Positions 8,942 through 60,143 of a DNA stretch of 64,000 bases are shown here, one piece after another. The stretch covers positions 1 to 64,000 of the forward strand of contig JAGGXR010000168.1 in assembly GCA_021162935.1 (NCBI GenBank), read 5' to 3'. The notes under the pieces were generated by a model. That model worked only from the letters and a program-made list of their open reading frames with translations, ran no database searches and had not been told where the DNA came from. The position numbers and the translations under genes are program-made. This DNA is from Deltaproteobacteria bacterium. Lineage in GTDB: Bacteria; Myxococcota_A; Polyangia; HGW-17; SLPX01. How positions within the stretch are numbered: the first letter of the stretch is position 1; every line of letters begins with the position of its first letter.

Positions 8942-10312
8942 ATGGCACGACGCAGCGGCACCGCAAACCTTCCTCTCCACGGGGGCCGGGTCCCTGGCTG
9001 GCTCGCTGCACGCATGACGAATCTGGCCGGCCTCATCATCGAGGCCATCGTCGAAGACGCCGGGCCGCATCACGTGCTGACACGATTGTCCGACCCCTTC
9101 TGGTTTCAGGCATTTGGCGCGGTGCTTGGCATGGACTGGCACTCTTCTGGCATCACCACGTCGGTCCTGGGCGCCCTGAAGCGATCTCTGGCCGACCGAC
9201 AGGACGCCCTAGGCCTTTACGTGTGCGGAGGCAGGGGCCGCCATTCCCGAAAAACCCCGGACGAACTGCTGGCCGTGGCGAATCGGACCGGACTCGACGG
9301 GGACGAACTGGCCACCACGAGCCGGCTCGTGGCCAAGGTGGACAACAATGCCCTGTCCGACGGCCATCAGATCTACCTCCACTCGTTCATCGTCACCCAG
9401 GACGGCCACTGGGTCGTCATCCAGCAAGGTATGGCCCCGGACCGTGGCACCGCCAGGCGGTACCACTGGCGATCCGACCTGGTGACGAGCTTCGTCGAGG
9501 AGCCTCACGAGGGTATCGTGGGGCCCAACCAGGGCGTCATTTTGAACCTCACGGACCGACGCGCTGCAGCAGCGCGTCAGGCCATGTGCGACCTGACCCG
9601 GCAGCCGCCCCAAGACGTGACGAACGAACTGCGCCGCATCCGTCACCTGGACCTTCCGGCCCACCACGACATCCGGGTCAGCGACGTCCTCCTCAACCGG
9701 CTGCAGGCCACACTGGTCACTGCAGCACAGCGTCCCATCGAGGACCTGACCGACCTGCTCCTGGTCCCAGGCCTCGGGCCCAGAACCGTCCAGGCCCTGG
9801 CCCTGGTCAGTGAAGTGGTGTATGGGGCACCGAGCCGGTTCGACGACCCGGCGCGATTCGCCTTTGCGCACGGTGGAAAGGACGGACACCCACACCCGGT
9901 CCCCCTGAAGGTGTACGACCAGAGCATCGCCACCCTTCGGGCCGCCCTAGACCGCGCAGTCATTGGGAGGACCGACAAGATCGAGGCCTTCCGACGCCTC
10001 GATCGACAGGTCCGGATGGTGGAACGGTCTGGGGTCATCGACGGACCCGACCTCAATGAAATCATGGAGCACGAACTTCTCGCCGCGCCTGGATTTGGAG
10101 GACGGACCGTGGGGCAAGGCAGACAGAGACCATCCAACCTGGGGCGTACAGAGAGCCAACAGAGCCCGCAGGCCATATTTCGGAACGATTCTTGCTTAGC
10201 CACACAACACAACGCCAAAAACGAGCCAAACAGGCAACTCACCTTGCCCGGCATCGAACCTGCCGACCCCCACAAAGACCGCGGCAAGAAACCCAGGAAG
10301 CCGACCTCATGA
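8942..10312 (+). CDS. DUF763 domain protein
   Basis: 456 residues. The N-terminus ARRSGTANLPLHGGRVPGWL, then LSDPFWFQAFGAVLGMDWHSSG and GGRGRHSRKTPDEL, are hallmark blocks of DUF763, a family known mainly from archaea and some thermophilic or anaerobic bacteria and still without an assigned function. A helix-hairpin-helix-like stretch (DLLLVPGLGPRTVQALALV) near residues 275-295 suggests nucleic-acid contact, as does the basic C-terminal tail. The last 65 or so residues are low-complexity. The gene starts after a weak AGGA-type site and ends in a 4-bp ATGA overlap with the activase gene, so the two proteins are probably made together. Confidence 0.85.
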   Translation: MARRSGTANLPLHGGRVPGWLAARMTNLAGLIIEAIVEDAGPHHVLTRLSDPFWFQAFGAVLGMDWHSSGITTSVLGALKRSLADRQDALGLYVCGGRGRHSRKTPDELLAVANRTGLDGDELATTSRLVAKVDNNALSDGHQIYLHSFIVTQDGHWVVIQQGMAPDRGTARRYHWRSDLVTSFVEEPHEGIVGPNQGVILNLTDRRAAAARQAMCDLTRQPPQDVTNELRRIRHLDLPAHHDIRVSDVLLNRLQATLVTAAQRPIEDLTDLLLVPGLGPRTVQALALVSEVVYGAPSRFDDPARFAFAHGGKDGHPHPVPLKVYDQSIATLRAALDRAVIGRTDKIEAFRRLDRQVRMVERSGVIDGPDLNEIMEHELLAAPGFGGRTVGQGRQRPSNLGRTESQQSPQAIFRNDSCLATQHNAKNEPNRQLTLPGIEPADPHKDRGKKPRKPTS

Positions 10313-12132
10313 TCACCGCAGGGATCGACGCAGGCCTCAGATCCGTCAAGGTGGTCCTCTGGTCTGCCCAAGATAGGCGGATCCTCTCGCGCAGCAAGGT
10401 CCCCACGGACTTCGACATCGAACGGTCCGTGAGGCAGGCCCTCCGCCAGGCCTGCGAAGAGGCTCGGATCCACGAGCGGGACCTGGCCGAGGTGGCCTGC
10501 ACCGGTGCGGGCAAAACCCACACGACCTTTTCCGACGTCCGTCAGGTCACCCAGGTCAGTGAGGTCACCAGCCTTGCCGCTGGCATCACATCGCTCATTC
10601 CCACGGCCCGGACCATTCTGGAACTGGGCGCCGAAGAGGCCAGAGCCGTCAAGCTCGACACCCAGAACACGGTTCAGGACTTTGCCACGAATGACCGCTG
10701 TGCGGCTGGATCCGGAGCGTTTCTCGAAGCCATGGCCCGTGCCTTGGACCTCTCGGTCGAGGAACTCGGTCGCACGGGCTCGGAACACATCCATGTGGCC
10801 CATATGTCGAGCCAATGCGTCGTGTTCGCTGAAACCGAAGTGATTTCCATGATCCACTCGGGGGTCGCAAAGCCCGCCATCGCCGCGGCCATCGCCGAAT
10901 CCATGGCCATTCGCGCCGCGGCAATGGGCCGCCGCGTCCGACTGGAGCCCGACCTGGTCCTTGCCGGCGGCGTCGCCCTGAGCCCGATCTTCGCCGCTGC
11001 CCTCGAAGCCGTCACAGGGCTCCCCGTACTCGTCGCGGACCATCCTCAACACGTCTCTGCTCTAGGCGCCGGCATCATTGCAGCATCCCATGCCATCGCC
11101 GCGTCCCAGCCCAATGTCACATCCAGAAACCCGTCGGACGAACCCAACATCCACAGCGCTGGCCCAACATCGATCCAGACGACCCAGACGAAGCCTCGCA
11201 GCACCCCTCTAGACCTCGCCTCGCAAGGGCACAAGTTAGACGCCCCCATCGGCAAAAACCATCCGGCAGCGAACCCGAACTGGCAATGGCCAGAAGGAAC
11301 GTTCCACGACCCCAAGCTCGACTGGCACCGAGCCCAGCGCCTCGTTGCTGGCATCGATGTGGGCTCTGTCTCATCCCAGGCGGTCATTCTCGCCGACGGA
11401 GAACTCCTCGCCTACGCGAATATCCGCACAAACTTCGGCAGCAGCGACAGCGCCCGGGCCGCCCTGAACCGAGCCATGTCCGGAGCCGGCCTGTCCGAGG
11501 ACCAGGTCCACTTCGTCGTGGGCACCGGCTACGGCCGCCAGAATGTTCCCTTCGCCCAAAAAACCGCGACGGAAATCGCCTGCCATGCCAGAGGTGCACG
11601 GTTCATCTATGGACCGACCGTCCACACCATCTTGGACATGGGCGGTCAGGACTGCAAGGCCATCCGGCTCGACGACCGAGGCAAGGTCGAACGTTTCGTC
11701 ATGAACGACCGCTGCGCCGCCGGGACAGGACGCGGCCTCGAAGTCTTCGCCGACCTCCTCGCCGTCCCCATCGACCAAGTTGGAGACCTGTCTCTCCGTC
11801 CCACAGGCCCGCTGCCGTCCATTGCCTCCATGTGCGTGGTGTTTGCAAAAACAGAAGCCCTCGGCCTGCTGCGGCAAGGATACGACAAAACGCAGGTCCT
11901 GGCCGCTTTCTGCGAGGCCATGGCGCACCGGGTGGTCACCTTGATCCGCCGCGTCGGCGTCCAAGCCGACTTCGTCGTCACCGGAGGCATCGCCAAAAAC
12001 CGAGGGGTCGTCTCCCGCATCGAAGCCGAACTCGGACTCACCGCCCTCCACCCCACCCTGGACACGCAGATCGCTGGTGCCCTGGGCGCCGCCCTGCTCG
12101 CCGACATCCGACTGAAACGTCGTGCCAAATAG
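10309..12132 (+). CDS. Single-chain tandem acyl-CoA dehydratase activase (BadF/BcrA/HgdC family)
   Basis: 607 residues with two ASKHA ATPase domains (about 1-262 and 345-605) joined by a disordered linker of about 80 residues. Each half has the cluster-binding pair: Cys131 (in NDRCAAGSG) and Cys170 (SSQCVVFAETE), and Cys469 (NDRCAAGTG) and Cys509 (ASMCVVFAKTE). Known activators such as HgdC are homodimers that hold one [4Fe-4S] cluster between subunits with two Cys from each, so here one chain supplies all four. The second half keeps the nucleotide motifs TGYGR and DMGGQDCK; the first has TGAGKT and ELGAEEAR in their place and may have lost ATPase activity. No dehydratase or reductase subunit is nearby, so the partner enzyme is unknown. 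It starts in the stop codon of the DUF763 gene. Confidence 0.88.
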   Translation: MITAGIDAGLRSVKVVLWSAQDRRILSRSKVPTDFDIERSVRQALRQACEEARIHERDLAEVACTGAGKTHTTFSDVRQVTQVSEVTSLAAGITSLIPTARTILELGAEEARAVKLDTQNTVQDFATNDRCAAGSGAFLEAMARALDLSVEELGRTGSEHIHVAHMSSQCVVFAETEVISMIHSGVAKPAIAAAIAESMAIRAAAMGRRVRLEPDLVLAGGVALSPIFAAALEAVTGLPVLVADHPQHVSALGAGIIAASHAIAASQPNVTSRNPSDEPNIHSAGPTSIQTTQTKPRSTPLDLASQGHKLDAPIGKNHPAANPNWQWPEGTFHDPKLDWHRAQRLVAGIDVGSVSSQAVILADGELLAYANIRTNFGSSDSARAALNRAMSGAGLSEDQVHFVVGTGYGRQNVPFAQKTATEIACHARGARFIYGPTVHTILDMGGQDCKAIRLDDRGKVERFVMNDRCAAGTGRGLEVFADLLAVPIDQVGDLSLRPTGPLPSIASMCVVFAKTEALGLLRQGYDKTQVLAAFCEAMAHRVVTLIRRVGVQADFVVTGGIAKNRGVVSRIEAELGLTALHPTLDTQIAGALGAALLADIRLKRRAK

Positions 12133-31855: not shown

Positions 31856-32947
31856 TCAGCGGGGATTGGCTGGACGCGGACGGGCGCCGGGCCTGGCGGT
31901 GGAACGGGGTCGCGCGACCGAATGCGGTGACGCGCCAGCTACCGAACCGGCTGAACCCGCCATGACACCGGTCGGGGTTCCGCCCCCTGCAGAGATGGCG
32001 GCGAAATCGGCGGCAGCCCCCGTCCTGTTGGGCTGAGCCACGGTCGTGGTGGGCGCCATGACCGGCTGGTGCTTGGACAAGACACAGCGAAATCCGATAT
32101 CGTCCCCTCTCGTGTTGGGCAGAAGTCGGAATCGATACGAGGCCCAAAGCGGGCTTGGGCTCCCCGTATAGCCGCCGCCTCGTAGAATCTTGTACCGATA
32201 CACGCGGCGGCCGGTGACCGGATCCGTCGGATTGGACGGTCCAGCCGGGTTGCGCGCAGCCTCGGGCCTACGATAAAATTGCGCGTCATACCAGTCGCTG
32301 ACCCACTCCCACACATTGCCGGTCATGCCCAGGGCACCAAAGGGGCTCGCTCCCGTGGGATGCTTCCCCACCACCTGGATTTTGCGCCCGCACACATCGA
32401 TATTGGCTCTCTTGCAATTCGGCGGGCTGTTGCCCCAGGCGTATCGCCTGCTGTCGGTTCCCCTGGCGGCCTTCTCCCATTCGGCCTCGGTGGGCAGTCT
32501 CTTGCCCAGGGCCCGGCAATAGGTGTCGGCATCCTTCCAGCTCACGCCCACCACCGGATACTTCGAATTCACCTTGATCCGCACCTTCTTGGTCGTCTTT
32601 TCCCGAATCCGGCCCACGGGCGCCTTGCCGAGCAAAATATAATGCGGCTTGCGACAGCGACCAGCCGTGACACATCGATTGTACTGCGCGAAGGTCACCT
32701 CGGTCTTGTCGATAAGGAAGGCGTCCACAAACACCATGTGCGACGGCTCCTCATCCACGTCGCCCGAATAGGATCCCATATGAAACCGACCAGCCGGCAC
32801 GCAAACCATGCCTGACCTGGACATGCCACAGGGCGTCGCGCTGCTGCTTCGATGCGCAGGCCGAGCCGACGTGTCTTGCTGCGACATTACGGCGAGCGCC
32901 GCTGCGCCCACCAGTGCCACGCCCCACCAATGCCACGACTGCTTCAT
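31856..32947 (-). CDS. Exported formylglycine-generating-enzyme-like (SUMF1) domain protein
   Basis: 363 residues. A signal peptide covers the first 28 or so residues. The SUMF1/FGE-sulfatase domain runs from about 46 to 290: MVCVPAGRFHMGSYSGDVDEEPSHMVFVDAFLIDKTEVTFAQY at its start, RLPTEAEWEKAARG, YAWGNSPP, GMTGNVWEWVSDWYD and GFRCVL. True FGEs need two active-site Cys near the C-terminus; only the Cys in GFRCVL is obvious there, so this is more likely a domain of unknown catalytic use, as common in surface proteins. The last 65 residues are Ala, Pro, Arg and Ser-rich. AGGAGG lies upstream of the start. Confidence 0.88.
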   Translation of the reverse strand: MKQSWHWWGVALVGAAALAVMSQQDTSARPAHRSSSATPCGMSRSGMVCVPAGRFHMGSYSGDVDEEPSHMVFVDAFLIDKTEVTFAQYNRCVTAGRCRKPHYILLGKAPVGRIREKTTKKVRIKVNSKYPVVGVSWKDADTYCRALGKRLPTEAEWEKAARGTDSRRYAWGNSPPNCKRANIDVCGRKIQVVGKHPTGASPFGALGMTGNVWEWVSDWYDAQFYRRPEAARNPAGPSNPTDPVTGRRVYRYKILRGGGYTGSPSPLWASYRFRLLPNTRGDDIGFRCVLSKHQPVMAPTTTVAQPNRTGAAADFAAISAGGGTPTGVMAGSAGSVAGASPHSVARPRSTARPGARPRPANPR

Positions 32948-33042: not shown

Positions 33043-36000
33043 TTATGCGCCTTTCTGGATTTGAGTCAACTCAGCATCGATCTCCCCCAGCAAAGCCTTC
33101 ATGCGATCCGGCTCGATCGATGCCACATCGGCGACCAGAGACGCAAGCTGCTCCCGCACACGAGCCACCGCTTGCTGGAGTTGGGACACGTTGCTGTACA
33201 GAAGCAACACCTCAGCATCCTTGTCGCCGAGTTGCTTGCTCAACTCCATCACCTTCGCTTCACTGTGGCGCGACGAGTCGTCGCGCGCGGTGAGCGCCTG
33301 TTCGAGGTGCTTCACCCGACGAGCCATTTCCGCCTGCCGCACCTCCCACTCCGCAGGCGCCCCCTGTGCACCACCCGCCTGAGCCAATTCCGACTGGAGC
33401 CGATCCAGATCCAGGGACAGGACCTGCACCTGCTCCTCCCTCTTGTCGTATTCCTTTCGAAGAGACACGAGTTCCCGCTCCAGGGAAACGACCTGGGCCC
33501 TGAGCCGATCCCGCTCCGCCACCGCCTCCTGGTCAGCTGTCTCGTCTCGACCCGCGACCGAACCAATGGCCTTCCCCTGGCCCTCGACTGGACCCACGCC
33601 CAGCTCCGAACCTGCTTCATCCATATGCACGAGCAGACGCCGCAGCGACTCTGCAAGGACCTCGATGCGCTCCGCCTCGGTTCCGAGCACGCCGCCCACT
33701 TCCGATACACGGCCGCGCTGCTCCTGCAGCCCGGCGGTCAACCCAGCGACCAGATCCCGCTCTGCCTCCAACAGCCGTCGTTGCTCGTCGGCCCGACGGC
33801 TCGCCTCGTCGGCGCGATGGGACTCCTCCTCCATCCGGCGGCTCGCCTCGTCGGCGCGTCCCTCCGCTGCTTCGATTCGACCCCTCGCGTCGTTCAGCTC
33901 GCCCGTCACGATCTCGATCCGCCGCTCCAGATCCTCTACTTTAGCGTTGAGTTCTTCGGCCCGGACCCGTGCCTGATCCGAACGTTCACCCACGACCTGG
34001 CCGTCCCGGCGAGCTACTGCCAACTCATCACTGACCAACCGGACGCGACGCTCCGCATCTTCGGTCTGACGCCGCCAGGTCTCAGCCTCGGCCCTGGCCC
34101 GATTCAACTCACCCCTGAGCCCGTCCACCATGCCGTCCAGGTCCGACACGCGTGGACTCATCTGGTCGAGTTGCTCATTCACTTCGGCGAACCGATGCTC
34201 CAGGTCCGTCTCATGCAGCCGCACCGCCTCGAATCGACGACGATAGCCCAATGCCTGCTGCTGGGCCTGCTCGAGCGCCTTCTCCAACGAGCCCATCCGA
34301 GCCGCAAGTTCGGCCTGACCTTTGCGATACAGGTCCATCTCCTGCTGAGCGCCAGCGAGTTCCATGACGAGGACGTGCGCCTCTTCCTGAAGACGACTGT
34401 TCTCGTTTTTGAGGGACACCACCAGCTCCTCGTGCGACGAATCAGACAGCACCTCCACGGCCACCGGCACAGAGGCCCCACGCTCCTGTTCGTCCCGACG
34501 GCCCAGACCGCTTGCCGCCCCTTCCCCATCCAAACCGGCTCCACGATAGGGCGCCGCCGTCTCGACCTGGGCCCCCTGCGCCTGTCCCTCGATGCCCACC
34601 TCCAACTCGACGAGCCCCACCTTGGGCCCCAGCCCCAGCGCTGCCACCCGAGACCGCACGTGGGCCTCGTGCCGCTCGGCCCGAGCAAGGCGCGACGCCA
34701 TGTCCGCCTCTCGGGCGCTGGCAACGTCCATCTCATGCTGGGCTGATGCAAGTTGGCCCACGAGGACCTCGATCTCCTCGGTGCGCTGCCGCACGACGGC
34801 ATGGAGTGCCGACGCCTCGGCCCGAAACTGCTGGGCCTCGCGTTCGGCTGTCAACAGACGCGCCTCGGCCTGAGCGAGCCGATCCTGAATCTGCCGTCGC
34901 TCGGCCTGGACGTGGCTCAACTTTTCCTTGGATCGGGCCACGGCGCGCCTCGCATGCCCAAGCTCGGCCTGCATGTCGGCCGTGGCTGCAGCCTGCTCGT
35001 TCAGCGTGGCCACTGCCTGCTGCCTTGCCGCCTCAGCCTGCGCAAGCCGTGCCTCCATATCCGCCACCCGACGCCGGGCCTCTTCGACCTCTTCGGGTGC
35101 AGCGGTCATCGACCCGTGTCGCCCGGCATCGGCTTGTTCACTCTGCTCGGCCAAGCGCTGCTCAGCCGCCTCACGCTTCTGCTCGGCAAACTGGAGCGCA
35201 GCCTCCAACTCGGCCACCTTGGCACCAAAGGCATCCTTGGCCTCACGGTTCTCTGCCAACTCGATCTGCAGCTCTTCGATCCGATGGCCCGCCTGCTCCA
35301 AACCGAATTCCGCCCGTTGGAACTCCTCGACGACCGCATCGACCCGAGCCTGGGACTCGCCCTGGAGGCGTTCCAACTCAGCCCGCGCTCCTGCATCTTC
35401 TGCCTGCTCCCGCAGGGCCCGCTCGGCCTGATCAGCCCGATCGGCCGCCCGCTCCGCTTCCTTGGTAGCCTGATCCAGGAACTTCTTGAGCTGCTTGATC
35501 CGGTCCTTTTTCTGCGTGGCCTCGTTGCGCCACTTGCGGCTCCGCTCCTGTTCTTCGGCCAATTCCGCCCGCAACTCGGCCGCCTCCTGGGAGGCCGCAT
35601 CCCACTGGGCCGTCATGACCAGCAGCCGCCTGGCCGTCTCATCGGCCGCCTGGCCAACCCGCTCCGCCTGGTCCTGCATCTCTTCGAGCTGCTGCGACAG
35701 GGCCACGATCTCGTCGCGTCCCCGTTCCGCTTCGGCGTCCAACCCGACCATCTGGTCACGCAATTTGGACCGCTGACGACGCGCGTCCTCCAGCTCGGCC
35801 TCCACGACCCTGAGTCGCTCCTGCACCTCGTCGCGCTCCACCTCCAACTCCACGAGACGACTCTCCTTGGGCCCTACCTCGCCTTCCAAATCCCCAATCT
35901 GCTGGCCGGCGCGAACCAATTCCTGCTCGATGGACAGAATCTGCTGGTCCCGCTCGGCAAGATCCACCCGCAGGTCTTCGATCTCGCGCTCCTTCATGCG

Positions 36001-39000
36001 CAGATCGTGGCGTAACTGCCGAGCCTGATCCTTGCGCTGCCTCGTGTCCTGCCTGAGTGCCGCAACCACGACGTTGCGATCCTCCAACCCCTGAATCGCA
36101 TGCAAAAGCGCCTGGTTCTTATGCTCCAGTTCCGACTTGAGCTGCTTGATCAGCTCGGTCGATCGCCGCAGATCCCGACCCACGCCATCGAGCTGCCCCG
36201 CCAGGTCTCCGACCACCTCCGACGTCTCGACGCGCACCTCTTCCAGCTCGGAATCGATGCGTTCGCGCACCGCGGCGATCACAGCCACGACGGACCTCAA
36301 CGAAGGATCCAGATCGAGCGCTTCGACGAGCGAGGCGAGCACTTTGGCCGCGTCCGCCTGGGTCGCCTCACGATCCTCGACGGCCTGACCGCCCACGCGT
36401 AGCAACTCACCTTCGGTGCGGGCAAGCTGTCGCGCCTTCTCATTCGCCGCCCGCATCACATCCACGACCCGCTGCTCGAGCGCCTGACGCTGCTCATCGC
36501 GCTCGCGAATCGTCTCCTCCAGGGTCGCCACCCCGTCCCGAAGGCGCTCGATGGTCGCATCCCGCTCCTTGAGGGAAATCGCCATCCTGTCCATCTGCTG
36601 AGCCTGGATGGCCAAGGCATCCTGGATGCGCTTCGCCTCGCGATCACGCATGGCCAGCCGCTCGGCCAGCTCGTCCCGTTCCCGGGCCCCTGTCTCGGCC
36701 TCCTGGCGCCGAGCCTGCTCATTGGCAAGCCGGGCCTCCAGCTCCTCGGCCTGCCAGGTCCGTTCCTGGAGGGCGGCACGCAAGCCGGCCACCGTGTCCG
36801 CCACGGCCTCGGCCTTTCTACGCAACTCGTCGGACTCCACCTTGGCCGCTTCGGCCCGCTCCCGCACCCGAGCCAGCTCGGCCACGGCCGCGCCTACCGA
36901 TGCCTCACGCCCCGACTCCTTGGCCTCGGCCAGAGACGCGGACAGATCGTCGATACGCTGCAGACCCGCCTCGACCTCGTTCTCGAGCGCTTCTTTACGC
37001 TGCACGAAGGATCGAATCTGCTCGAGCGCCTCGCGATGCCGCCGTTCGCTCTCCTCCACCCGACGCGCCAACACGTCGCGATCAGCCACAGCCGCATCCC
37101 GCTGGGCCTCCAGCTCCGTCTTGCGCTCCTGCCAGGATCGCTCCTGCTTCTCGTGACTCTTCTGCAAGTCCTCGACCGTTGCCGCTAAGTCCCGAAGCCT
37201 CCCTCGCTCCCGATCGAGCTGGGCGGTCAGATCGCTGCGGACCCGGTCCAGTTCTTGAGTGGCCGCCGCGGCCACCTCACGGTCCTTGTCCACGGACTGG
37301 AGCTTCTCTTCCAGTGCCTGACGCTTTTGCTCCAGGTGCACGATCCGCTCGGCCATCTCCGAAGCACGCCCCGCCTCGGTGCCGGCCTGCGACTCCGCAT
37401 CCAGGGCCCGCTGGCGCCAGGTGGCCAGCACCTCGTCCGCCCGGACCTTGCCCCGTTCCGTCTCGGCGAGACGCCGGGTCAGATCCAAAGTCCTCGCTTC
37501 GAGTTCGTCGACCCTGGCATGCTCATCCGAAAGCCGCGCCTCCAGCTCGCCGTTGCGCTCTTCCAGGACGCGCTTTTCCACCTCGACGCCCGACAAACGT
37601 TCCTCGGCCTGCCGCTCCCGCGCCGCAGCCGCGTCGCGTCCCTGGGCCAATGATTCGTTGAGCGAGGCGATCTCGACAGCCTGCTCCTGCACCTTGCTCT
37701 TCAGAGCTTCGACCTTGGCGCTCACCTTCTCGGCGTTCTGAGCCAATCTGGCCGCCTCACCCGTGCTCCGCTCCAGCTCCACCTGGAGCCGTTCCTTCTC
37801 GGCGGTACGAGCCTCCAACTCGGACACGAGGCGCCCCACCTCACCCTGGAGCCGTTCCACCTCGGCCTGAAGCTGGGCCTTCTCCTCACGAAGCGCTCCT
37901 GCCTCGGCGTCGCCCTCCTTCGATGCAGCCAACTCGGCCCGTAGGCGCTCCAACTCCTCGTTGGCCGTCGTGAGTTCTTCGGCCATGCCCGCAGCATCCT
38001 GTTCGAGCGACTTGCTCCGCATCCGGAGCTGAGCCAACTCGGCCTGTTCCCGGGACTTCGCGCTCCTGTCCTGGACCGCGCCCTTTTCAGCAACCTCCCG
38101 GTTCGCCGCCTCCAGACTCTGCCTCAGCCCGCGCACCTCGGACCTGAGCGCATCCAGTTCGGCCTCCTGCGACTCGATCCGACCCCGCGCCGCTTCCAGC
38201 TCCATCTCGGACGACTTCAGGTCACCACGCAAAGCAGCAAGTTCGGCCTCCAACTCAATCGTTGCCTCGGCCCCTACCCCGTCATCTACCTCATGCCCTC
38301 GACCGACGGCCGCCCCCGTCCGGCTTTCGAGCAGCTCCACGGAAACCCGACCTTCTTCTACCGCACTGCGGAGCCGATCCAGCTCGCCCACCAACTCGTC
38401 GATCCGCGCCTCGCGCTCTGCGAGTTGCCCGGCGAACTCCTCGGATTGGATCCTCGTCTCTTCCAGTTCGCGGGCCCGCTCTTCGAGCCGCGATTCGGCC
38501 TCCTCGGCCTCGGCGCGCAGCCGTTCGACCCGCTCGCCTGCCTCGGTCAATTCTTCGCGGACGGCTTCCAACGCCGCCTCCAGGGCCTCACGATCCTCCG
38601 CATCGGTGCCTTCGGCCGCATCAGCCCCCTCGACTCCACCACCTGCGCCACCGCCACGCCGGACATCGTCGCCTGCCGTGTCTCCACCGACTCCGCGACC
38701 CAGCCGCCGCACCTCGTCGGGAGGCGCGCCGGCATCCAGAGCCAGCTCCATCTCGAAGAGACGGCCCAGCCGCCGCTCCATGGCTGCAAAGGGCACCTGC
38801 ACCACGTACGACGGTCTCAGGGGCACCTCGGACCGGCTACAAAGGGCCAGGTAGTCACCCGCGTCTTCGGTATCCCCATTCAGCAACGAATCGTCGAGCG
38901 CCAGCTCGGGCTCCTCGGTCCTGGGCACGAACTCCACCAGAGAGAACCCGGAGAAAATGCTCTGGGACACCATCACGACCTGGGAAAATCCAGGCTCCAG

Positions 39001-39435
39001 CACGGACAGGAGATCGTAATAGGCCATGGCCTGAGGGGTCTCTTCCATGTCCCCGTTGTGCACCGCTACGTATAGCACGCCATCGTCGGTCAGACGACTC
39101 ACGAGCGCCTCGACCGCCCCTGGCCGCGCCAGCCAATGCGCCGCCTCAGGCACACAGATCACGTCGAACGGGCCGGGCACCGCGCTCTGGTCCATGAGAT
39201 CGGCACAGGTAAATTCCAGGTTGGAGCGACGATACCGCACCCGGGCCCGCGCGATCTGCGTCTCGTCCGCATCCAGGCCAACAACCTGCTGCGCATCGAG
39301 GCCCGCCAGGAAATCTGAAGCCAACCCCACGCCGCAATCCACTTCGAGCACTCTCTTGCCCCGAACCAGATCTTCGATGAACACGTACCGCGGCAGTCTG
39401 CGAAACCATGGGTCCAACAACTGGTGATAGAGCAT
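33043..39435 (-). CDS. Giant protein: SAM-methyltransferase-like domain fused to about 1800 residues of coiled coil
   Basis: 2130 residues. Residues 22-175 resemble a class I methyltransferase: VLEVDCGVGLASDFL (29-43, motif I with Asp where the first Gly is usual), VVGLDADETQI (51-61), ADLMDQ and FDVICVPEAAHWL (90-102). A spacer (175-275) includes a Gly-rich run. From about 280 to near the end, almost every stretch is charged, Leu-rich and heptad-like, with Pro nearly absent: a long coiled coil. Breaks occur near residues 1440 (GRHGSMTAAPEE) and 1580-1650 (Gly-rich). A continuous helix of this size would span roughly a quarter of a micrometre. The architecture recalls AglZ and FrzS, which are motility-related receiver plus coiled-coil scaffolds, but that is only an analogy. 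AGGAGG precedes the start. Confidence 0.88.
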   Translation of the reverse strand: MLYHQLLDPWFRRLPRYVFIEDLVRGKRVLEVDCGVGLASDFLAGLDAQQVVGLDADETQIARARVRYRRSNLEFTCADLMDQSAVPGPFDVICVPEAAHWLARPGAVEALVSRLTDDGVLYVAVHNGDMEETPQAMAYYDLLSVLEPGFSQVVMVSQSIFSGFSLVEFVPRTEEPELALDDSLLNGDTEDAGDYLALCSRSEVPLRPSYVVQVPFAAMERRLGRLFEMELALDAGAPPDEVRRLGRGVGGDTAGDDVRRGGGAGGGVEGADAAEGTDAEDREALEAALEAVREELTEAGERVERLRAEAEEAESRLEERARELEETRIQSEEFAGQLAEREARIDELVGELDRLRSAVEEGRVSVELLESRTGAAVGRGHEVDDGVGAEATIELEAELAALRGDLKSSEMELEAARGRIESQEAELDALRSEVRGLRQSLEAANREVAEKGAVQDRSAKSREQAELAQLRMRSKSLEQDAAGMAEELTTANEELERLRAELAASKEGDAEAGALREEKAQLQAEVERLQGEVGRLVSELEARTAEKERLQVELERSTGEAARLAQNAEKVSAKVEALKSKVQEQAVEIASLNESLAQGRDAAAARERQAEERLSGVEVEKRVLEERNGELEARLSDEHARVDELEARTLDLTRRLAETERGKVRADEVLATWRQRALDAESQAGTEAGRASEMAERIVHLEQKRQALEEKLQSVDKDREVAAAATQELDRVRSDLTAQLDRERGRLRDLAATVEDLQKSHEKQERSWQERKTELEAQRDAAVADRDVLARRVEESERRHREALEQIRSFVQRKEALENEVEAGLQRIDDLSASLAEAKESGREASVGAAVAELARVRERAEAAKVESDELRRKAEAVADTVAGLRAALQERTWQAEELEARLANEQARRQEAETGARERDELAERLAMRDREAKRIQDALAIQAQQMDRMAISLKERDATIERLRDGVATLEETIRERDEQRQALEQRVVDVMRAANEKARQLARTEGELLRVGGQAVEDREATQADAAKVLASLVEALDLDPSLRSVVAVIAAVRERIDSELEEVRVETSEVVGDLAGQLDGVGRDLRRSTELIKQLKSELEHKNQALLHAIQGLEDRNVVVAALRQDTRQRKDQARQLRHDLRMKEREIEDLRVDLAERDQQILSIEQELVRAGQQIGDLEGEVGPKESRLVELEVERDEVQERLRVVEAELEDARRQRSKLRDQMVGLDAEAERGRDEIVALSQQLEEMQDQAERVGQAADETARRLLVMTAQWDAASQEAAELRAELAEEQERSRKWRNEATQKKDRIKQLKKFLDQATKEAERAADRADQAERALREQAEDAGARAELERLQGESQARVDAVVEEFQRAEFGLEQAGHRIEELQIELAENREAKDAFGAKVAELEAALQFAEQKREAAEQRLAEQSEQADAGRHGSMTAAPEEVEEARRRVADMEARLAQAEAARQQAVATLNEQAAATADMQAELGHARRAVARSKEKLSHVQAERRQIQDRLAQAEARLLTAEREAQQFRAEASALHAVVRQRTEEIEVLVGQLASAQHEMDVASAREADMASRLARAERHEAHVRSRVAALGLGPKVGLVELEVGIEGQAQGAQVETAAPYRGAGLDGEGAASGLGRRDEQERGASVPVAVEVLSDSSHEELVVSLKNENSRLQEEAHVLVMELAGAQQEMDLYRKGQAELAARMGSLEKALEQAQQQALGYRRRFEAVRLHETDLEHRFAEVNEQLDQMSPRVSDLDGMVDGLRGELNRARAEAETWRRQTEDAERRVRLVSDELAVARRDGQVVGERSDQARVRAEELNAKVEDLERRIEIVTGELNDARGRIEAAEGRADEASRRMEEESHRADEASRRADEQRRLLEAERDLVAGLTAGLQEQRGRVSEVGGVLGTEAERIEVLAESLRRLLVHMDEAGSELGVGPVEGQGKAIGSVAGRDETADQEAVAERDRLRAQVVSLERELVSLRKEYDKREEQVQVLSLDLDRLQSELAQAGGAQGAPAEWEVRQAEMARRVKHLEQALTARDDSSRHSEAKVMELSKQLGDKDAEVLLLYSNVSQLQQAVARVREQLASLVADVASIEPDRMKALLGEIDAELTQIQKGA

Positions 39436-39705
39436 GCCTCCTCCACGATTGGGCATTTTGGGACGCTCACAGGCTCGACACCGGGTCGACGCCAAGCTTG
39501 CCATAGTAATTAGACTGTTCTAAAGCCTGTGTAAACTGTTTTCCCATCCGGGTCGGTCCGGCTGGACCGAACGGAGCGAATGGAGAAGGGCCGGACCGAA
39601 CGGAGCCGGGCGTTCGGACCCGGAGGCACCGAAATGCACAGGGCGCCAAAAACGAACGAAAAACCAAACAACCAGCACAGGCCAGCATTCCGTGAGGACG
39701 ACATC
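39436..39705. other. Divergent intergenic region of low complexity
   Basis: 270 bp between the giant coiled-coil gene and the acyltransferase gene. Repeats of GGACCGAACGGAGC-type words occur around 39560-39605. It must hold at least one promoter. No gene is supported. Confidence 0.4.
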
Positions 39706-56806: not shown

Positions 56807-58294
56807 CTACTGATCGAGGAGTTCGCGGTAGAGCGCCGCCATGTCGGCAACGAGACGACGGGCCGCGTAGCGCGCCCGGATGAGGTGGGAAATCTCGGCA
56901 GGATCAGGGGTGGACGCGTTCATCATGTCGCACATTGCACGGGCCAGGGCCCTGGCATCGCCCGGCTCGACGAGTCGTCCAAACCGGCCCTGTTCGAGCA
57001 CATCGGCCACCCCGCCCACTGCGGTGGAAAGCACCGGCACTCCAGCCGCCAGCGCTTCGATCACCGCCACGGGCGTTCCCTCGTTGTTGGAACTCAGCAC
57101 AAACAGATCCAGATCCGAGTAGATGCGATCCAGGTCCGACCGCCATCCGATGAAATGCACCCGACCTGCCAGGTCCGGTCTCGCTGCTCGCGCCTCGAGC
57201 TCTGCCCTGAGGCCGCCATCTCCCACGATCACCAGATGCATGGGCCGATGGGACCGATCACTGCCAAAACCGCCCACGCCCTGCTCGGCTTGTCGCAACG
57301 CCAGGGAGAATGCCTCCAAAAGAAGTGCGTGATTCTTGATGGGCACCAGTCGCCCCACCGTACCCAACACGAACGCATCGGCCCCGACGCCTTGCCACCC
57401 TTCGCCGAGTTGGGCGCCCTGCCCTGCGCCCAACTGGGTTGCGCCCTTTTCGGTCGCCCCTAACGCGCCCAATGCGAGTTGGGCCCTCGGCCCCCCAAAC
57501 AGCTCCTCGCGCAGCCCGCCACGCAACCGCCCCGACGCCCTCGCCTCCCACAGCGCGTCGAGGTGCTCGAAGCCGAGCGGGATCACTCGGAATCGGTCCT
57601 GTGGCGCCACGCGGTAGCGCTGCGACAGATCGGTCTTCTGACTCTGCGAGAGCGCCACGAGCACTGAACTGGACCGAGCCAGGAAGCGCTCTACCTGCAG
57701 GAACGCCCCGGACTTGAGCCTGCCGAAGTAGCCTGAAAACACGTGACCGTGGTAGGTGTGCACCAAAACCGGCCCACGGCGCTGGTGACGCCCATCTCCG
57801 CCGTCACGTCCGCCGTGACGTCCGCCATGACGCCCACCTGGCAGAACGCCAAACGTCGCCCCCGCTGCCATGCCGGCCAGCCTGCCCAGCAGCCCAGCTT
57901 TGGACATGTTCGTATGGATCACGTCCGGCCGAAAGGAACGCACCAACGCGATCAGTCGCGCCAGGGCCACGGCGTCGCTTGCCGGATCCACCTCGCGCGC
58001 CAACTCGGGAATGACCACCAGGTTCCCGACCCGCTCTGCGGCCCAATCGTACATCCCGACCTCGCCCTCGGACAGGCGGCCCGACACGAACAACGTCTCG
58101 AACCCCTGCTCCCGGAGCCCTTCGGTTAGGACCACCTCGTTTCGAGAAACCCCCCCAATGTTCAATCTGGTGATGATACGAAGAACACGGATGGGACGAC
58201 TTCGGTGGATGGATCCTTCCATGACTGGTTCGTCCTCTTCACGACCACCTGACATCTTCTTGTGGCTCGCTATGCCCAAACGACCGGCCCTCAT
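56807..58294 (-). CDS. Glycosyltransferase family 4 with low-complexity insertions
   Basis: 495 residues. GT-B fold: [25 protein letters not shown] at the start (about 36-60), [34 protein letters not shown], a second half with [86 protein letters not shown], the last including the E-x7-E retaining motif. Insertions not usual in the family: a Gly/His/Arg run (about 160-175) and an Ala/Gly/Leu/Gln-rich block (about 270-310). The ATG at 58294 overlaps the stop of the broken gmd gene by 4 bp, which sets the start; later ATGs are possible. Donor sugar unknown. Confidence 0.9.
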
Positions 58295-58824
58295 CCCTTG
58301 GTGTTAGCGACAGACCCGGCCTGCGCCCCAATGAGAGTCATATCATGGGCCACCATGCGACGCACCAACTCATCGAAGGTCACCTCGGACTTCCATCCCA
58401 GCTTCTCGCGCGCCTTGGCTGAATCGCCCAACAGGAAATCCACCTCCGTGGGCCGAAAGTAGCGCGGATCCACCTTGACCCGGACCTTGCCGTCCCGGTC
58501 CAGACCGCGACGTTCCAGCCCCTCGCCGAAAAACTCGATAGGCATGTCCGCAGCCCCGAAGGCCGCGATGCAGAACTCCTCGACACTGTGGGCCTCGCCC
58601 GTGGCCACCACGTAATCATCAGGCTCGTCCGCTTGGAGCATGAGCCACATGGCGCGTACGTAGTCGGGCGCATAACCCCAGTCACGCTTGGCTGCCAGGT
58701 TACCCAAGTAAGCCGCATAGCCCTTGGCCAACAGAAGCTCCGCCAGATACGACCCGTCCTGGCCCGTGATCCCGGTGATCAGCGCTGTCTTGTCCTTGTG
58801 CGATCCTGCTGCTTGCTCATTCAT
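58291..58824 (-). pseudogene. gmd: GDP-mannose 4,6-dehydratase gene with internal in-frame deletion
   Basis: 177 residues; intact Gmd is about 345-370. Residues 12-36 are a perfect Gmd start ([20 protein letters not shown] then AKGY). From residue 39 the sequence jumps to the distal part of the enzyme ([22 protein letters not shown]), normally near residue 200, and then continues normally to [21 protein letters not shown] and the C-terminus. About 170 residues are missing, including the Thr-Glu-Tyr-Lys catalytic residues. The frame is preserved and the 3' end overlaps the next gene, so it may still be translated but cannot be an active dehydratase. The junction is near 58708-58719. A misassembly must be excluded. 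The conserved start is 58824; a longer frame reaches 58854. Confidence 0.88.
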
Positions 58825-59049
58825 GGATGATGCTCTCTGCCGCTCTGCCATCATGGCCCGAAGTCATGTTCATCGCTGCCTACTGCATCCCTCTGGGCCG
58901 ATGCCCCACAAACCACGCATAGGTGGACTCAAGCCCCTCCTATTATGATAAATGTGTTGCGAAAACAGGTCAACGACAGGATGCATCCAACGACGGAAGG
59001 GGCGATAAAAACGCGCGGGGCGATTGGCGGCAAGACGGACGAAAAGCGA

Positions 59050-59823
59050 TCACGGAGATGGTTCGAGCAGGGCGAATTCGGTCTTCTTCATGTCGATTTG
59101 AACATGGGCGGCCTGCTGGAGCAGGCCCAGGTTGAGCACGAGGACGGAACGGCCGCGGCGTTCGAGCACGGTACCCACCAGACCAGCAAGCGGGCCGGAC
59201 AGGATGCGGACACGCCTGCCGGTGGGATCGAAGTCACCCCGTTCGAGGGTTTCTGAGGACACGCGGTAGGCAACGTAGATCTGGCGAAGCTCGGCCAGAA
59301 ACTGCTGCTCGTCTCCCACGGAGAGGAAGGAGACAATCTTGGAGGAACGAAGCAGAGCCAGCCTGGAAGCGGCATCGACGGCACAAAACAGGTAGCCGGA
59401 AAAGAGCGGAATCTCGAACGTGACGGCCTTGCGTCGGTACTTGCGCACCGAGGCCTGGACCGGGAGGTAATGGGGAATGGAGAGTTGTTCACAACGCCGG
59501 GCGACCACCTTTTCACTTCGGGGCCGACAGTGGACGGCGAGCCACGAAAGGCCGGGGTACGGACGCAGGACGGCGGTGGCGTCGGACCAGGCCCGGTGGC
59601 GGATGTCGGTGGCGACAGAGGCGTTGTCCGGGGCGGTGTCTGGCACAGAAGAGCCGGGTCGAACAGCCGACGCGGCCAAGGCCGATGAGCCGGACTCGCC
59701 CGTCATGGCCGATGAGACTGCCCGAGGCGATGGGTTCTGCGGGCCAGATGAGCTTGGAGCCCGTGTTGGGCGGTCCGTGGAGGACGGTCCGTCGCAGGCA
59801 GATGGGTCGTGCGTACGAGTCAT
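59050..59823 (-). CDS. NusG-like specialised transcription antiterminator (RfaH/UpxY-type)
   Basis: 257 residues. Residues 1-90 are a disordered Ser/Pro/Thr/Arg-rich extension. The NGN domain follows (about 92-185: LSWLAVHCRPRSEKVVARRCEQL, IPLFSGYLFCAVD), then a KOW domain (201-248: GRRVRILSGPLAGLVGTVLERRGRSVLVLNLGLLQQAAHVQID). It differs from housekeeping NusG in that it sits beside polysaccharide genes, as do RfaH, UpxY and LoaP. It probably lets RNA polymerase read long EPS operons. No ops-like element was recognised in the adjacent DNA. The start is uncertain, since the region before it lacks a good ribosome-binding site; the frame extends to 59964. Confidence 0.85.
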   Translation of the reverse strand: MTRTHDPSACDGPSSTDRPTRAPSSSGPQNPSPRAVSSAMTGESGSSALAASAVRPGSSVPDTAPDNASVATDIRHRAWSDATAVLRPYPGLSWLAVHCRPRSEKVVARRCEQLSIPHYLPVQASVRKYRRKAVTFEIPLFSGYLFCAVDAASRLALLRSSKIVSFLSVGDEQQFLAELRQIYVAYRVSSETLERGDFDPTGRRVRILSGPLAGLVGTVLERRGRSVLVLNLGLLQQAAHVQIDMKKTEFALLEPSP

Positions 59824-60143
59824 GGTGGATTTCTTGTATGATTTTTTGGTGAAGCGGACAAGAAGAAGCAAACGGAGATGCATGATGATGCGTTCGGGAG
59901 AAAGAGGCCGCGTCCATGATTGTGAAACGTAACAAAAACAGCCCGAACCTGAACAAAACGTCACTGTTTCATGTTGCTTGCTTGGCCAATCCGGCTACTG
60001 GGTGCACCAATCGACCCTGTTCGATCAGGCTTGGACAGAGAAAAGAACTGTGGTATTTTGTTTTTTTACAGTAGATCCCCTGGGGGTTTGCTCTTAAAGC
60101 CTTTGTTGAGTCGAGTGCGTTTCATAGATCGAGGATTCGGGTC
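59824..60143. other. Divergent intergenic region between antiterminator and kinase genes
   Basis: 320 bp. It is AT-rich near 60040-60075 and must hold promoters for both directions. One candidate for the kinase gene is described separately. No gene is seen. Confidence 0.5.
60032..60060 (+). promoter_or_regulatory. Putative promoter of the BY-kinase gene
   Basis: TTGGAC (60032-60037), a 17-bp spacer and TATTTT (60055-60060), 84 bp before the start codon. Weak match; by eye only. Confidence 0.4.

Follow-up and report, generated by a model that had tools for sequence, protein, structure and literature searches.

FrzS and AglZ of Myxococcus xanthus are proteins in which a degenerate N-terminal regulatory head, a pseudo-receiver, is joined to a coiled coil, and for FrzS the atypical receiver, the coil and a C-terminal tail are all needed for localisation (PMC1974792). 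WbdD of E. coli O9a combines an N-terminal methyltransferase with a C-terminal coiled coil and sets the length of the O-antigen (PMC3482155). Coiled-coil scaffolds that bear a degenerate enzyme as their head are a known arrangement, whereas no precedent was found for a methyltransferase-type head on such a scaffold. Likewise, the open-access literature, of which coverage was incomplete, yielded no paper on an architecture of methyltransferase head and coil in myxobacteria.

The protein described here is encoded in the window, i.e., the whole analysed stretch of 64,000 nucleotides of a Deltaproteobacteria bacterium (contig JAGGXR010000168.1, assembly GCA_021162935.1). It represents an apparently undescribed family which is widespread in one class of myxobacterium-like bacteria. 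The original prediction, made from the sequence alone, had stated that no known family has this make-up; this holds for the literature searched, in which no description was found, but a family does exist. The analogy to FrzS and AglZ drawn there is borne out in layout, i.e., a degenerate head, a coil and a conserved C-terminal end, but not as homology. The head has a methyltransferase fold instead of a pseudo-receiver, Pfam gives methyltransferase families only and no N-terminal (pseudo-)receiver domain was found, and the coil comprises some 1750 residues compared with 258 in FrzS, to which no sequence relation was shown. The kinase domain and the length of 708 residues of WbdD have no counterpart in the protein, nor has its ABC-exporter O-antigen system one among the window ORFs scanned.

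Gene and reading frame

The positions of the gene and its parts are compiled in Table 1. Of the two candidate start codons, the downstream ATG is preferred because GGAGGAGG lies just 5' of it and the proteins of the relatives start at the same position. The original prediction had allowed for an artefactual frame lacking orthologues. An assembly artefact is unlikely, since third-position GC is steady across the whole gene, a single short repeat of 21 bp is the only repeat within it, and an independent relative (L020) features both conserved ends within one frame. The length and architecture originally claimed were confirmed by Pfam, AlphaFold2 and coil scoring.

Table 1. Location of the coiled-coil gene and of the features of its product in the window.
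Feature	Residues	Position	Strand	Basis
Whole gene, 2130 aa		33043..39435	(-)	ATG 39435 (alternative ATG 39504); start backed by GGAGGAGG and relatives
Head: class I methyltransferase fold and family-specific end	1-244	38704..39435	(-)	Pfam, AlphaFold2, PDB fold match, family alignments A1/A4
SAM motif I, VLEVDCGVG; first Gly of GxGxG is Asp	29-37	39325..39351	(-)	Alignment
Distal family motif, consensus VRMxGQxPFxGY; kept better across the family than motif I	152-163	38947..38982	(-)	Alignment
Coiled-coil rod with breaks	277-2024	33364..38607	(-)	Lupas-type scoring, periodicity
Coil break	1015-1075	36211..36393	(-)	Lupas-type scoring
Gly-rich coil break, largest break	1590-1665	34441..34668	(-)	Lupas-type scoring
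Conserved C-terminal foot (LGDKDAEVLLLY...)	2056-2129	33049..33270	(-)	Leave-one-out profiles (E 4.6e-9), comparison with L020

Methyltransferase-fold head

Residues 1-160 were assigned to the class I methyltransferase domain by Pfam, with matches above the cut-off to Methyltransf_25 (1.9e-9) and Methyltransf_11 (2.5e-9). For the head, AlphaFold2 predicted from a 37-row alignment a Rossmann methyltransferase fold with strands and helices in the usual order (pLDDT 89.5, pTM 0.85), and the nearest solved folds in the PDB are SAM methyltransferases, e.g., 3l8d. Apart from SMC matches to the coil, no family besides the methyltransferase domain was recognised in the protein by Pfam and profile searches. 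The original prediction had read an altered motif I, EVDCGVG, and this reading is correct: one of the three glycines is replaced, with Asp at the first position. The second and third glycines as well as E31, D54 and D91 are kept; the structure prediction with SAM-site comparison proposed at that time gives a confidently predicted methyltransferase fold with a mostly retained site. Alanine at the first glycine is known from active enzymes of this class, i.e., UbiE and glycine N-methyltransferase, and the position thus tolerates change. Aspartate is unusual there. Altogether, motif I appears only mildly altered, and the window head could, judged by these residues, still bind SAM. Enzymes of the Methyltransf_25 and Methyltransf_11 families (PF13649, PF08241) resemble the window protein in the fold of the head and in most of motif I, but lack its long coil and foot, and in the family of the window protein motif I was lost in most members.

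This loss concerns 23 of the 37 members examined, while L020 and 13 other heads are motif-intact. When the columns of motif I were excluded from tree building, the losses fell into one clade of 21 members and, singly, L032 and L077, which requires at least three changes. The support of the clade (90/92) narrowly misses the starred level. The fold is still predicted for a member of the motif-lost clade (pLDDT 84, with PDB fold matches), and both the distal motif and a strand YxxVQxP, which are conserved across the family, are kept despite the loss of motif I. Such a pattern would be expected of a binding head and not of a catalytic one. The repeated loss of the cofactor motif suggests that the protein serves as a scaffold or tether and not as an enzyme. 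The original view of a coil joined to a degenerate enzyme is supported, and the designation as pseudo-enzyme suits the family better than the window protein, which retains most of the site.

These observations also bear on the alternative of an active methyltransferase on a stalk. Motif-intact heads, including that of the window, would bind SAM and methylate a protein or small molecule, the coil would place the enzyme near its substrate, and the motif-lost clade would be a later offshoot. The residues kept in the window head, the further intact heads, and the fold with its nearest PDB matches, which are active SAM enzymes, are in line with this, but the aspartate at the first glycine is not, and because the motif-lost members keep the same architecture, the latter does not need catalysis. 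Active methylation is regarded as unlikely.

Coiled-coil rod and C-terminal foot

The coil was scored with a Lupas-type table, and reliance is placed solely on the contrast with shuffled sequences: 71% of residues 277-2130 score at least 1.5, compared with 8.8 +/- 3.8% in 20 shuffles. As a control, no residue of 1-240 in the head reaches even 1.3. In addition, LIVM residues of the rod recur with a period of 3.50 residues (z=26). The long coil of the original prediction is hence confirmed, with breaks at residues 374-386, 1015-1075, 1590-1665, 1911-1960 and 2025-2058. If unbroken, the rod would measure about 0.26 um (0.1485 nm per residue), compared with the fibre of roughly 0.27 micrometre initially estimated, and about 0.2 um if only high-scoring residues are counted. 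A long-period charge or packing repeat, as in filament-forming coiled coils, was looked for in the rod and none was found; filament packing is therefore not indicated by the sequence.

SMC models match the coil (TIGR02168, E 3.5e-47), which might point to a DNA-organising protein of the SMC or Rad50 kind. Nevertheless, the score of 160.9 bits is well short of the cut-off (567), the stretch that matches best is part of the coil, and neither an ABC-type ATPase head nor a hinge family was found by Pfam and profile searches. Matches of this type are expected from coiled-coil composition alone, and SMC membership was rejected since all of them fall in the coil and score well under the cut-off. A role of this kind is extremely improbable.

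The last approximately 150 residues match the sister protein L020 clearly above heptad-preserving shuffles and are the sole stretch of the tail to do so; other coil segments lie somewhat above their own shuffles, each against a different relative. Moreover, with the window protein left out of the profile, its foot was still recovered (residues 2059-2106, 27.8 bits), while the best reversed-sequence control reached 9.0 bits. The foot was likewise recovered in L020, L033 and L083, with the near-identical pair L069/L070 not left out in turn in these profiles. L022 gave a weak match, and the foot of L034/L035 was dropped after failing the leave-out (6.2 bits). The foot was thus found in several lineages, though not in all members of the family. 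At the level of sequence, only the ends are conserved, i.e., the head and, in several lineages, the foot, and the rod between them diverges freely.

Distribution of the family

In close relatives, this head was again found joined to a long coiled tail. The search for orthologues suggested originally gave matches in 200 of the 318 genomes of the class, mostly one per genome; ordinary methyltransferases may account for some of the weakest among them. L086, which has no coil, was first counted as a family match and then used as outgroup. The tails of complete members range eightfold, from about 240 to 1906 residues, and nearly every one of them is coiled coil. The upper limit is set by the window protein, the longest seen, with L104 (1894) and L020 (1848) next. 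In a scan of named genomes, the window head alone as query gave no match and alignment A1 was too diverse, so that a three-row alignment was used instead; it yielded two matches in MAGs, 'Deltaproteobacteria bacterium' (the L020 contig) and 'Myxococcales bacterium'. On the tree, L020 groups with the window protein with a support of 97/92, and both belong to the part in which motif I is intact. The L020 genome features a second relative, L036 (287 aa; 9638-10507), with a head, no coil and a short PE-repeat tail, which adjoins a gene for a TPR protein of 1093 aa.

Outside the class, the phylum contains weaker relatives (L089-L094), most of those read having the head start HTLDGEWHALLPRY. Their head is related to that of the window protein and has a glycine-rich motif I, but their tails are acidic or of other kinds with little coil. 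A gain or expansion of the long coil within the class of the window genome is therefore suggested. L089, L090 and L091 combine the HTLDGEWHALLPRY head with a long acidic, probably disordered tail, a type that many genomes of a single family in another class contain once each.

Genomic neighbourhood

In the window, the coiled-coil gene is divergent from an adjoining EPS locus that includes Wzy- and Wzz-type genes. The first gene of this locus encodes a hexapeptide transferase (39580, plus strand), separated by a gap of about 75-145 bp, and no sigma-70-type promoter was found in 39505-39579. Directly downstream of the coiled-coil gene lies a gene for a sulfatase-modifying-factor (FGE-like) protein (31856-32947, minus strand); its product has a signal-like start, and the two genes are possibly co-transcribed. 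Within the EPS locus, a NusG-like gene (59050-59964, minus strand) beside a Wzz/tyrosine-kinase-like gene may encode a specialised antiterminator. Besides, a GDP-mannose 4,6-dehydratase gene (58291-58854, minus strand) has an N-terminal start fused to the C-terminal part (profile 213-332); the missing middle reflects either an internal deletion or an assembly collapse.

The connection to EPS assumed in the original prediction was rejected after inspection of the relatives. No EPS gene was recognised beside them in the loci scanned; rho (12 loci), dnaJ (7) and prfA (6) are the most frequent recurring neighbours, counts which are lower bounds given the short loci, and the sister gene in L020 has DUF4388, TPR and amidase genes around it. 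For the time being, the EPS adjacency is consequently taken to be local to the window. Ser/Thr kinase genes also adjoin in 11 loci but were disregarded, as they belong to a large family of paralogues. In single lineages, PilZ, histidine kinase, MCP or cyclic-nucleotide-binding genes adjoin. PilZ-domain genes lie near the coiled-coil gene in L023 (8861-9232) and L024 (3613-3966), in the latter with a histidine kinase gene in between, and a link to c-di-GMP is possible in this lineage.

With regard to the adjoining locus, a function as WbdD-like chain terminator or ruler of the polysaccharide would agree with the shared methyltransferase and coiled coil and with the divergent orientation of the gene. 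However, Pfam found no kinase domain, the locus is of the Wzy/Wzz type (Wzy_C and Wzz/GNVR genes are present and an ABC exporter is absent among the window ORFs scanned), and the relatives lie outside EPS loci. The eightfold variation in rod length together with the missing kinase led to the rejection of this idea, which is highly improbable.

The window genome encodes type IV pilus/secretion type ATPases and contains Arf-like GTPase matches, so that motility of the organism is possible; nothing ties the coiled-coil protein to it. A strict organiser of polarity or motility as FrzS or AglZ, which would connect a landmark at the pole with type IV pili or with the secretion of EPS, would be a narrower form of the tether discussed below. 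It would be consistent with the FrzS layout (PMC1974792), with these genomic matches, with the adjoining signalling genes in some lineages and with the EPS locus beside the window copy. Still, a receiver domain is lacking, the relatives have rho, dnaJ and prfA as commonest neighbours in place of EPS genes, and signalling genes are common in such genomes. This strict form is considered quite improbable.

A proposed two-ended tether

The most suitable explanation is a two-ended cytoplasmic tether or scaffold, to which a probability of about 0.5 is assigned. In this proposal, the methyltransferase fold of the head would recognise one partner, serving as a binding module without a normal SAM motif in most of the family. 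The rod, a long and probably two-stranded coil with few flexible breaks, would keep the head at a distance (0.2-0.26 um here), and in several lineages including that of the window the foot would attach the opposite end to another partner or to a surface. The exact sequence of the rod would hardly matter as long as it separates what head and foot bind. Dimerisation, docking and the scaffold function are inferred. The process served might concern the pole, the chromosome or a signalling array, and positioning in the manner of FrzS and AglZ would be the leading guess for the role of the protein.

The tether is favoured because head and coil occur together in about 200 of 318 genomes, mostly in single copy, and because nearly every tail remains coiled coil over the whole range of lengths. 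Moreover, the end of the tail matches L020 beyond shuffles, leave-one-out profiles detect the foot, motif I was lost at least three times with fold and distal motif kept, and no family beyond the methyltransferase domain was recognised, while FrzS follows the same plan (PMC1974792). The largely retained SAM site of the window protein, the fact that the foot was not found in every member, the support of just 90/92 for the clade of 21 members and the lack of a long-period packing repeat count against it.

Taken further, the class might possess a family of coiled-coil tethers headed by pseudo-methyltransferases, acting as a sub-micrometre scaffold, i.e., an organiser of the cell pole, envelope or nucleoid. 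Its head would have been repeatedly turned into a binding or sensor module, with a rod free to evolve in length up to about 0.26 um. This extension is tentative, its probability falling short of even. As a mostly single-copy protein of about two-thirds of the genomes of the class on which no literature was found, the protein is a good candidate for a structural or signalling component that has so far gone unrecognised. Tractable test cases are offered by relatives with shorter coils, some of them in complete genomes. In addition, the family combines one architecture with SAM motifs that range from intact to lost, a natural series useful for the question of how enzymes become scaffolds.
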